From Candidatus Rokuibacteriota bacterium (GTDB lineage Bacteria; Methylomirabilota; Methylomirabilia; Rokubacteriales; JACPHL01): a DNA stretch of 6,414 nt. Location of the stretch: assembly GCA_016188625.1 (NCBI GenBank), contig JACPHL010000254.1:1-6414 (forward strand). The letters run 5' to 3'. Shown one piece after another: positions 2,458 to 6,323 of this stretch. The translations under genes were made by a program, and so were the position numbers. The notes under the pieces are model-generated. The model saw nothing but the letters and a program-made list of their open reading frames with translations, did no database searches and was not told the DNA's origin. Each line of letters opens with the position of its first letter. The stretch's first letter is position 1.

Positions 2458-4050
2458 TCAGTCGTCGCCGAGGATCTGCTCCCGGAGCGCTCCGGTCTCG
2501 AAGAGCTCCGCCAGCCGTCGGTGCTGGATCTTCCCGCTCGAGGTCTTGGGGATGGTGTGGGGCCGGACCAGCAGCACGCGCGAAGGGCGCAGCCCCCGCT
2601 CCGCGCGCACCCGCCGCGCGATCTCCCGGATCAGCCGGGAGCGGGCCGTCCGGGCCGGGGCCTCGTCCCGGACCTCCGCGATCACGATGAGCCGCTGGGT
2701 CCCGAGCCGGTCGCTCTCCACCCCGATGGCGGCGGAGTACCGGACCGCCGGGTGCTGATCGACGATCTGCTCCACGTCCCCCGGGACCACGTTCTCCCCC
2801 CGGACCACGATGAGGTCCCGGAGCCGGCCGGTGACGAAGAGATGGCCCTCACCGTCGAGGAAGCCGAGATCCCCCGTCTGGAGCCAGCCGTCCCGCAACG
2901 CCTCCTTGGTGGCGACCGGGTCGTGGAGGTAGCCCTGCATGACCCCCGGGCCCCGTACCACGATCTCCCCCTCAACGCCGGGAGGGAGGGGCCGGCTGTC
3001 CCTGACGACCCGCACCTCCACACCGGGGAGGGGTGTCCCAGAGGAGACGTAGCGCCCGGAGGGATCGACGCGGGCCGGCTCTCCCGGCGTCGCCATGGTC
3101 ACGGCCAGGGTCGCCTCGGCCAGGCCGTAGGCGGGGCAGATCACGCCCTTCAGGCCGAACTGCGTCTCGAAGGCCCGGACCGTGGAGGGCCGGACCGGCT
3201 CGCCCCCGCTCAGGGCCAAGCGGAGGCTCGAGAGGTCGAGGCCGGCCAGGTCGTGGAACTGCCTCACGCAGCCCCGGTAGCCGAAGTCGGGCGAGGCCGT
3301 GAAGGCAGCGCGGGAGGTCGTGATCGCCTCCAGCCAGGCCCGGAGGTTGCGGAGGTCGGGGGGCAGGAGGATCAGAGGGGCCCCGGCGTAGAGGCTCCCG
3401 AAGCTCGCGCCGATCAGCCCCATGTCGTGATAGAGGGGGAGCCAGCTCACCACCACCTCCTCCGCCGCGAGCCCGACCCGCGTCAGGATCGCCCGGAGAT
3501 TGGCCAGGAGGTTCCGGTGGCTCAGGACCGCCCCGCGCGGGGCCTGCGTGCTCCCCGAGGTGTACTGGATCAGGGCCGTGTCGTCCTCGGAGAGATCCGG
3601 CAGGGGCGCCGGCGCGCCCCCGGCCTCCAGCTCGTCGGGGGCGAGGACGGCCTTGAGCGCGGGGCTCCCGCGCCCGGCCTCCTCCACGGTCGCGCGGAAC
3701 CAGTCGATGGTGACCACGGCCCGCGCCCCGGAGCTCTGGAGGATCCGCCCCAGCGCCGCCGCCCCCAGCGTGGGGTAGAGCGGAACCGGGACCGCGCCGA
3801 GGGCCTCGGCCCCGAAGAAGGCGTCGAAGAACTCCCGGCAGGTCGGCAACAGCAGACCGACGAGATCCCCGCGTCCGACCCCCGCACGCGCGAGCCCGGC
3901 CGCGGACCGGAGGCTCCTGGCCCACGCGGCCCCGTAGGTCACGGGTTCCCCGTAGGCGGTGAACCAGACGCCCTCGGGCTCTTGGCGGGCGCGGAGGCGC
4001 AACACCTCGAGCAGGGTCGGGGCCGCGGCGAGATCCGCCATCCCGGGCAT
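2458..4050 (-). CDS. Fatty acyl-AMP ligase / acyl-CoA synthetase-like adenylating enzyme (530 aa)
   Basis: ANL-superfamily enzyme that activates a fatty acid with ATP to acyl-AMP, for transfer to CoA or a carrier protein. Visible motifs are the P-loop YTSGSTQAPRG (163-173), SWLPLYHDMGLIG (202-214; the WLPLYHDMGL block is typical of the FadD/FAAL long-chain group), YGLAEAT (308-314), TGDLGFLDGEGHLFVTGR (392-409) with adenosine-binding Asp394, the hinge region GRLRDLIVVRGENVVPGDVE (408-427), and the catalytic lysine in PKTSSGKIQ (Lys507). Order and length fit a complete single-module enzyme with no fused carrier domain. The frame is open upstream to 4536, but the ATG at 4050 is chosen because GGAGGG (4059-4064) lies 8 nt before it and homology begins just after it; a second in-frame ATG at 4041 is possible. 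It resembles fatty acyl-AMP ligases most, yet only about 20 residues separate YGLAEAT from YVSSG, which seems too short for the FAAL-specific insertion, so an acyl-CoA product cannot be excluded. The UPF0182 gene follows 18 nt downstream. Confidence 0.93.
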   Translation of the reverse strand: MPGMADLAAAPTLLEVLRLRARQEPEGVWFTAYGEPVTYGAAWARSLRSAAGLARAGVGRGDLVGLLLPTCREFFDAFFGAEALGAVPVPLYPTLGAAALGRILQSSGARAVVTIDWFRATVEEAGRGSPALKAVLAPDELEAGGAPAPLPDLSEDDTALIQYTSGSTQAPRGAVLSHRNLLANLRAILTRVGLAAEEVVVSWLPLYHDMGLIGASFGSLYAGAPLILLPPDLRNLRAWLEAITTSRAAFTASPDFGYRGCVRQFHDLAGLDLSSLRLALSGGEPVRPSTVRAFETQFGLKGVICPAYGLAEATLAVTMATPGEPARVDPSGRYVSSGTPLPGVEVRVVRDSRPLPPGVEGEIVVRGPGVMQGYLHDPVATKEALRDGWLQTGDLGFLDGEGHLFVTGRLRDLIVVRGENVVPGDVEQIVDQHPAVRYSAAIGVESDRLGTQRLIVIAEVRDEAPARTARSRLIREIARRVRAERGLRPSRVLLVRPHTIPKTSSGKIQHRRLAELFETGALREQILGDD

Positions 4051-4058
4051 TGTACCAT

Positions 4059-5900: not shown

Positions 5901-6146
5901 CTACCTGGAGATCGGCGTGCCCCCGCAATCGAAGTGTCCGAAGCCCCTCGGCTGCTGGAAAAACGCGATCTGCTGGCTCGGCTTGACGTCGTCCTGGCAG
6001 CGCACGCACCGCCGGGCGGTCTCCTCCCAGGCCTCGAGGCAGTTCCGGCAGACCCCGAACCCTCGCTCTTGCGGGGAGAGTTTCATCTCCCCCTTGGGCG
6101 CGGCCTGTCCGCACGCCTGACACGCCACCTTTCCAAACGGCCACAT
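5901..6146 (-). CDS. Small zinc-ribbon protein of unknown function (81 aa)
   Basis: Cytosolic protein with metal-binding pairs at Cys9/Cys12 (CQAC), Cys33/Cys36 (CRNC), Cys47/Cys50 (CVRC) and His71/Cys74 (HFDC), enough ligands for two four-ligand zinc sites. No signal peptide or membrane segment is present. No named family is recognised. Such zinc ribbons commonly bind nucleic acid or protein partners, but nothing here says which. The start at 6146 is chosen because GGGAGG (6151-6156) lies 4 nt upstream and the first Cys pair follows soon after. An in-frame ATG at 6191 would start inside the terminator T-tract and is rejected. Upstream is a strong promoter and a leader with an intrinsic terminator, so expression may be controlled by attenuation. 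The DUF2294-like gene follows 62 nt downstream. Confidence 0.85.
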   Translation of the reverse strand: MWPFGKVACQACGQAAPKGEMKLSPQERGFGVCRNCLEAWEETARRCVRCQDDVKPSQQIAFFQQPRGFGHFDCGGTPISR

Positions 6147-6288
6147 GCTCCCTCCCTCGGCCCCCCTTCCTGAGGTGCTGGACTGAAACAAAAAGGCCGA
6201 CCCCGGTCACTGGGACCCTGGCCGGCCTATCCTGCCCCTGGTCATCCCCAAGCGGATCACCCTGGGCCCGATCAGCCGTTCCGTTCAG
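6147..6288 (-). promoter_or_regulatory. Structured 5' leader of the zinc-ribbon gene, possible attenuator or riboswitch
   Basis: Between the expected start site (about 6288) and the ATG at 6146 the transcript has about 140 nt. A mid-leader stem pairs GGTGATCC (6252-6259) with GGATGACC (6240-6247), with one G-G mismatch, followed by GGGGCAGGATA and then the terminator hairpin. It does not match the riboswitch classes I can recall (c-di-GMP, SAM, ZTP, fluoride, glycine, guanidine). Alternatively it is a short stand-alone RNA ending at the terminator, with the gene reached by read-through. Confidence 0.5.
6186..6227 (-). terminator. Rho-independent terminator ahead of the zinc-ribbon start
   Basis: On the minus strand an 8-bp stem GGCCGGCC/GGTCGGCC (6220-6227 with 6195-6202, one G-T wobble) is extended inward by GGTC/GACC (6214-6217 with 6205-6208) across a small internal loop. 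TTTTTGTTT follows directly (6186-6194). It lies downstream of the promoter at 6294-6323 and 40 nt before the ATG, the position of an attenuator. Confidence 0.85.
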
Positions 6289-6293
6289 TGCTG

Positions 6294-6323
6294 ACTTTAT
6301 CACGGGAAACCCATCCCTGTCAA
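6294..6323 (-). promoter_or_regulatory. Sigma70-type promoter for the zinc-ribbon / DUF2294-like operon
   Basis: A perfect -35 TTGACA (6318-6323) is followed after 18 bp by an extended -10, TGATAAAGT, with hexamer TAAAGT at 6294-6299. An alternative hexamer GATAAA (6296-6301) gives a 16-bp spacer. Initiation is expected near 6286-6289. The spacer carries GGGA/TCCC (6304-6307 and 6314-6317) as a short inverted repeat that might be an operator. Confidence 0.75.

Follow-up and report, generated by a model that had tools for sequence, protein, structure and literature searches.

The RAT on which BglG and LicT act is an imperfect hairpin of about 30 nt with internal loops, part of which coincides with the 5' arm of an intrinsic terminator. 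The regulator, a PRD/CAT protein, is encoded immediately upstream of the leader of the gene that it controls, and the controlled genes are for sugar uptake. Another leader RNA, the yybP-ykoY Mn2+ riboswitch, precedes TerC/Alx genes. The ykkC/guanidine riboswitches, formerly an orphan class, have a mixed regulon with, among others, carboxylases and nitrate, sulfate and bicarbonate transporters (PMC7266159). In Staphylococcus aureus, deletion of mpsC caused no growth phenotype and mpsC was dispensable for MpsAB transport; the expression of mpsA was downregulated at 5% CO2 (PMC6689103).

In the present study, we analyzed a stretch of 6,414 nucleotides (hereafter, the window) from a Candidatus Rokuibacteriota bacterium (contig JACPHL010000254.1). 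Leader attenuators are already known as a kind, but the RNA found here is a new class: judging from its sequence, the window contains one copy of a previously undescribed family of bacterial RNAs that probably act as switches. Like the RAT, it is an imperfect looped hairpin over the 5' arm of a terminator; however, it is about 50-70 nt long and has four helices, its neighbour gene encodes MpsC (PF10057) and not a CAT-PRD protein, and its targets are not sugar-uptake genes. Both this RNA and yybP-ykoY precede genes for membrane proteins of the TerC/Alx type and for further ion transporters, whereas the present RNA has no Rfam match, has another fold and is mostly followed by carbon enzymes and bicarbonate transporters. 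It shares with the ykkC/guanidine riboswitches a mixed regulon including carboxylases and transporters, but differs from them in structure and in the lack of an Rfam match, and no guanidine carboxylase or SMR pump adjoins it. As in the mpsABC operon of S. aureus, the MpsC family is found beside a bicarbonate transporter (MpsAB/DabAB); in contrast, the mpsC knock-out there has no growth phenotype, and the dabA-DUF2294 locus of Staphylococcus pettenkoferi has no copy of the RNA.

When the window and 16 other loci were compared with all 4227 families of Rfam 15 at lax thresholds, no family reached its gathering score on the RNA, and nothing credible was seen on the window leader at E values up to 10. 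The best match on the leader strand was BcKCsr2 (18.4 bits against a cut-off of 40), and the sole match above threshold was to a tRNA that adjoins the element in L073. The initial annotation had taken the leader for an unassigned attenuator and had suggested comparison with Rfam; the absence of any known family on the leader agrees with it, as do the homologous leaders in many genomes, the strong covariation and the conserved overlap of antiterminator and terminator described below. The TerC/Alx genes downstream in two genomes (G065 and G046) might suggest a divergent member of a known family such as yybP-ykoY. However, the covariance model of that riboswitch (RF00080) gave no match, the loci with TerC downstream (L030 and L037) included, BcKCsr2 is far below its threshold, and a single laddered hairpin is unlike the yybP-ykoY architecture; we consider such a relationship very improbable. 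A literature search, subscription papers and preprints excepted, gave no description of the RNA class and no report of a CO2 or bicarbonate riboswitch, and DUF2294 appeared there in one unrelated paper.

Promoter, leader and terminator in the window

On the minus strand of the window, a promoter, a structured leader and a strong intrinsic terminator stand in order before an ATG at 6146. The promoter scan gave the -35 hexamer TTGACA (6323-6318), whose position is kept in most members of the family, and, after 18 nt, the -10 hexamer TAAAGT (6299-6294) with a TG extension, which was also recognized by comparison of the members. This promoter (6323-6294) matches at 10 of 12 positions, and the mean number of such sites in shuffled versions of the region was 0.0. 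The leader RNA (6287-6189) was delimited by the promoter, from which its start site was deduced, by a covariance model match at 6290-6188 and by the terminator. Folding of a 101-nt leader gave -52.3 kcal/mol, compared with -41.0 kcal/mol in shuffles (z -3.0). The terminator (6228-6194) is a stem-loop of nine pairs (6228-6220 with 6202-6194), followed by the run TTTTT (6194-6190); the sole terminator-like site in a scan of the region was at 6217-6199, with the T run. An ordinary gene that happens to be preceded by a promoter and a terminator, with no regulation, is a practically negligible explanation, since it is contradicted by the independent copies, the covariation and the mpsC linkage found in many phyla.

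The gene behind the leader (6146-5901) encodes a small zinc-ribbon-like protein of 81 aa with several Cys pairs, and its matches to Pfam zinc-ribbon families are all below threshold. The next gene (5838-5407) encodes a divergent MpsC-like protein of 143 aa, which has no Pfam match itself and is 38% identical over 110 aa to a protein of L008 (PF10057 at 2.7e-8). Its homologues are found in similar neighbourhoods in G025, G019, G033 and G073. Besides these, the main genes of the window, likewise on the minus strand, encode a UPF0182 membrane protein (1-2439) and an AMP-binding ligase (2458-4053). Upstream of the promoter lies the 3' end of mpsC (6413-6357; GERIVIFVLSENLEEQFR and stop), cut by the contig end, with C-terminal residues as in the PF10057 proteins of L008 and L009. 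The window genome (G000; 2.6 Mb, 84% complete) has a second copy of the RNA on contig C271, adjoining the N-terminal part of an mpsC at the contig end. The window contig and C271 probably join into one mpsC locus, in agreement with G019 and G033, where RNA copies are found on both sides of mpsC.

The near-consensus promoter, a paired mid-stem of the leader, the strong terminator before the ATG and the metal-binding pairs of the gene behind it had all been read in the initial annotation, and each was found again here, the mid-stem as helix P2 of a longer hairpin. The outermost helix of this hairpin, P0, and the end of mpsC are additions to that reading.

Structure and covariation of the RNA

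In 13 sequences, the outermost helix P0 is separated from P1a (two pairs) by a 2x2 loop (NG/AR), P1a from P1 (four pairs) by a 3x3 loop, and P1 from P2 by a 2x2 purine loop; the terminator follows. In the window, P0, the antiterminator helix, is formed by CGGC (6278-6275) and GCCG (6226-6223), P1a by AU (6272-6271) and AU (6230-6229), the latter followed by a conserved A at 6228, and P1 by GCCC (6267-6264) and GGGC (6237-6234). P2 (6261-6240) is closed by pairing of GGTGATCC (6261-6254) with GGATGACC (6247-6240). The evidence is covariation for P0, together with the terminator alignment for its 3' arm, RNAalifold and pair counts for P1a, pair counts for the 3' arm of P1, and folding and covariation for P2. 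In the 13 sequences, one pair of P1a is AU in 11 and GC in 2, and the other is CG in 7, UA in 5 and UG in 1; the variants of P1 among the members are GCCC/GGGC, CCAG/CTGG, GCCT/AGGC and TCAG/CTGA.

A test for covariation had also been suggested in the initial annotation. Here, by RNAalifold and pair counts, double changes were well above those of shuffles. In the GC-rich members, 92% of the cells were paired, 42 two-sided changes were observed compared with 15.8 in shuffles, and the covariation score was 0.52 versus 0.24, with slid controls at or below 0.18; across phyla it was 0.506 versus 0.214. The P1 covariation of the low-GC set alone was left out, because MAFFT misregisters P1 there by one position. 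Within the GC-rich set, P0 has the weakest covariation, with one double change (pair 13/85 of the alignment); its support is mainly cross-phylum, from the change of C-G to U-A at the same pair in six sequences, and in the low-GC members P0 is of the TTGG/CCAA type. The purines of the internal loops and a G18/A80 mismatch are conserved. When the cores of 21 members were folded in isolation, closely similar laddered hairpins were obtained, some with helices shifted by one base or with one pair lost. One member (L085, 1351-1411, minus strand) has an extended P2 and a P0 of GGA/TCC; it is located after an antiporter-like gene and mpsC and before a GreA-like gene.

The terminator was paired in 100% of the cells in 13 members and has covariation of its own. 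In the alignment, P0 occupies columns 12-16 and 82-86 and the terminator columns 80-88, hence the 3' strand of P0 lies inside the terminator. The same arm serves as the 3' side of P0 and as the 5' side of the terminator, so that the P0 hairpin and the terminator are mutually exclusive, as in an antiterminator/terminator switch. A promoter, a leader and a terminator thus stand before an ORF, with conserved pairing that excludes the terminator, and we are nearly certain that this is a conserved leader RNA with a strand shared between antiterminator and terminator. The structure is conserved with covariation across phyla, as would be expected also of a riboswitch, for which ligand binding is putative here.

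With its own promoter and terminator and its fixed pairing with mpsC, the RNA might also be a stand-alone small RNA that acts in trans, has MpsC as chaperone or target and leaves the next gene uncontrolled. In 25 of 27 members, however, a same-strand ORF follows the RNA within 300 nt (at 80-300 nt), and the re-use of a terminator strand by P0, which is conserved across phyla, would be superfluous for a plain small RNA. We regard this explanation as improbable.

Distribution of the RNA family

A DNA search of 59 genomes gave a single true homologue, which lies in G025 in front of a zinc-ribbon gene with 67% identity; matches in L003, L005 and L006 were rejected as chance matches within a coding gene of the rplY/ctc type. 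Through the homologues of the zinc-ribbon gene we reached G019 and G033, with two RNA copies in each genome: one precedes a second MpsC-like gene, and the other, which is divergent, precedes a cation-antiporter-like gene. The homologous leaders that the initial annotation expected at zinc-ribbon genes were found in these three genomes and at none of the further zinc-ribbon homologues. Because those further homologues have no leader, the zinc-ribbon gene is not the anchor of the RNA.

A covariance model trained on six sequences (R1) was searched in 95 genomes of the phylum, and its matches outside the training set had E values of 6e-14 to 9e-9. The new copies were the one on C271, two each in G046 and G065, and single copies in G073 and G076. 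A second model (R2), searched in 388 genomes across Bacteria, matched nine genomes, eight of which belong to the phylum of the window; in the ninth (G218), which is from another phylum and was not in the training set, the RNA is located 16 nt after mpsC. By eye, the RNA was seen directly after mpsC in G344, G207, G346 (twice), G353, G213, G180 and G118. A third model (R3), built with some of these mpsC-flank members, found members outside its training in L082 (G134), L085 (G158), L070 and G478. Weak matches of the covariance models in L031, L032, L049 and L050 were set aside.

We also drew up a structure descriptor, the rules of which are limited to base pairing, G18, A80 and an overlapping terminator. 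It marks further elements in Acetoanaerobium noterae (after mpsC), on an Anoxybacillus plasmid (flanked by mpsC and the gene for a Na+-dependent bicarbonate permease) and in G125 (in front of an ABC permease gene that adjoins mpsC). A handful of descriptor matches that lie in AT-rich loci, distant from mpsC, appear to be spurious. By covariance models and descriptor together, the family comprises about 28 copies, from 8 genomes of the phylum of the window and about 13 outside it, A. noterae and the Anoxybacillus plasmid among the latter. Promoters matching at 9 or more of 12 positions were found within 80 nt before P0 in 19 of 27 members, mostly with TTGACN and with 8-28 nt between the -10 box and P0, the matches in AT-rich flanks being less telling according to the shuffle counts. 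In L039, two tandem copies (1328-1433 and 1501-1600) precede one gene, and the first is degenerate or divergent.

Association with mpsC

The constant neighbour of the RNA is mpsC (PF10057, formerly DUF2294), normally just upstream. Full-length MpsC is encoded in seven of the eight RNA-bearing genomes of the phylum; the other 87 genomes have no full-length MpsC, and G061 has one weak match to the domain. The co-occurrence of the RNA and mpsC gave Fisher p values, which ignore phylogeny, of 7e-10 for 95 genomes and 1.5e-10 for 388 genomes. The descriptor matched 17 of 21 mpsC 3' flanks, compared with 0.67% of dinucleotide shuffles, the 17 matches being not fully independent because the descriptor was drawn up after viewing many of these sequences. 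This layout, with the RNA 3' of the gene for a putative regulator, is similar to that of BglG/LicT. Furthermore, the constancy of the upstream neighbour and the variation of the regulated genes argue for MpsC as a trans-acting reader. By analogy with BglG/LicT, direct binding of the hairpin by MpsC has, in our view, nearly an even chance.

The absence of a recognizable RNA at the mpsC genes of G254, G285, S. pettenkoferi and G158 (first copy) counts against this explanation. The null phenotype in S. aureus also counts against a role of MpsC, though no RNA is seen in its relative S. pettenkoferi, in which a plasmid DUF2294 gene is again found beside dabA. Divergent DUF2294 genes beside fdhD and fdhF, without a recognizable RNA, are present on Bacillus and Priestia plasmids (L095, L096). 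Neither a sequence search of the PDB nor a search of viral contigs gave a relative of MpsC, and a single-sequence AlphaFold model of the MpsC-like protein of the window (pLDDT 57.6) was too poor for a fold search.

A further finding against MpsC as the reader is that G046 (77% complete) has two RNA copies and no detected mpsC. The two copies are neighbours (L030), one before a gene for a small secreted-type protein and the other before a Usp-TerC pair. Their presence favours a true riboswitch, in which P0-P2 would bind a small molecule or ion, such as bicarbonate, a C3/C4 acid (PEP, oxaloacetate), Mn2+ or Ca2+, or would sense pH, and mpsC would be a frequent fellow of the same physiology. The conserved purines of the internal loops and the G18/A80 mismatch also fit such binding. 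However, the gene that constantly adjoins the RNA lies upstream and is not the regulated one, little of the sequence is invariant beyond some positions in the loops, and neither a junction nor a pseudoknot was seen.

Genes behind the RNA

The zinc ribbon is only one of many downstream genes, and it is found directly behind the RNA only in the window genome and G025. Phosphoenolpyruvate carboxykinase (PEPCK) genes are downstream at five loci, of the GTP type in G344, G346 and G478 by test and in G207 by eye, and of the ATP type in G180. The others include genes for biotin carboxylase (G118), DabA (G076), the bicarbonate transporter Sbt_1 (Anoxybacillus), TerC/Alx (G065, and by eye behind the Usp gene in G046), Na/Ca exchangers (Na_Ca_ex; G000, and, as judged by sequence similarity, G019 and G033), an ABC permease of the SsuC/TauC/NrtB type (G125), and MpsC or MpsC-like proteins (G019, G033, G065 and G073). 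CO2/bicarbonate is the best single common denominator of the downstream genes, though not of all: chorismate synthase (G218), argininosuccinate synthase (G134), the GreA-like gene (G158), a lactate-type MFS transporter (A. noterae) and DUF4914 (G213 and G353) fit an inorganic-carbon theme poorly. The A. noterae gene had been taken for an oxalate/formate transporter, an assignment now replaced by the lactate-type MFS. The large DUF4914 protein (a PF16260 match in L072 and L075, assigned by similarity in L079) is encoded behind mpsC at these three loci, two of which have the RNA.

Thus, of the proposal in the initial annotation that an attenuator controls a zinc-ribbon gene, the attenuator stands and the zinc ribbon as the regulated theme does not. 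Zinc sensing found no support, as no zinc transporter or zinc-sparing gene was present among the downstream genes examined. Enzymes and transporters such as PEPCK, biotin carboxylase, DabA, Sbt_1, TerC/Alx and Na_Ca_ex are the kind of genes that riboswitches control; however, no single metabolite links the downstream genes, and a ligand-binding RNA remains a serious alternative at clearly less than even odds.

Proposed mechanism and significance

Our computational results support the RNA family, its base pairs, the sharing of the strand, the association with mpsC and the gene contexts. The reading that we prefer, with a probability of about 0.5, is a cis-acting transcription-attenuation leader, the hairpin of which is likely held or released by MpsC in response to a signal of inorganic carbon, pH or ions. 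From the analysis we infer the switching itself, its ON direction, the binding by MpsC and the signal, as follows. RNA polymerase would start beside 6294 and transcribe the four-helix hairpin (P0, P1a, P1 and P2) with its purine-rich internal loops. The 3' strand of P0 (AGGCCG) would be needed again as the 5' strand of the intrinsic terminator, and this double use speaks for termination that is regulated. Holding of P0-P2 would block the terminator, so that the next gene is read; otherwise, transcription would stop. The hairpin may be held (or released) by MpsC, a small protein from the gene just upstream, as BglG/LicT hold RAT hairpins, and the signal may be one that reflects pH, ion balance or inorganic carbon (CO2/bicarbonate).

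We put forward tentatively, at somewhat less than even odds, a widespread module that controls genes for the uptake of carbon, for carboxylation and for ion transport in several phyla of bacteria, and in which either MpsC is an RNA-binding antiterminator or the RNA is the first bicarbonate/CO2 riboswitch. Should CO2 or bicarbonate be what the RNA or MpsC senses, this would be, as far as the searched literature shows, the first known control for inorganic carbon at the level of RNA, and DabA, Sbt, PEPCK, carboxylases and cation exchangers would be tied together. The short leader with its intrinsic terminator offers ready reporters in cultivable hosts, e.g. Acetoanaerobium and Anoxybacillus. MpsC/DUF2294 proteins, which occur from Bacillota to little-known phyla, have no assigned function, and the conserved RNA adjoining their genes opens a direct functional test.
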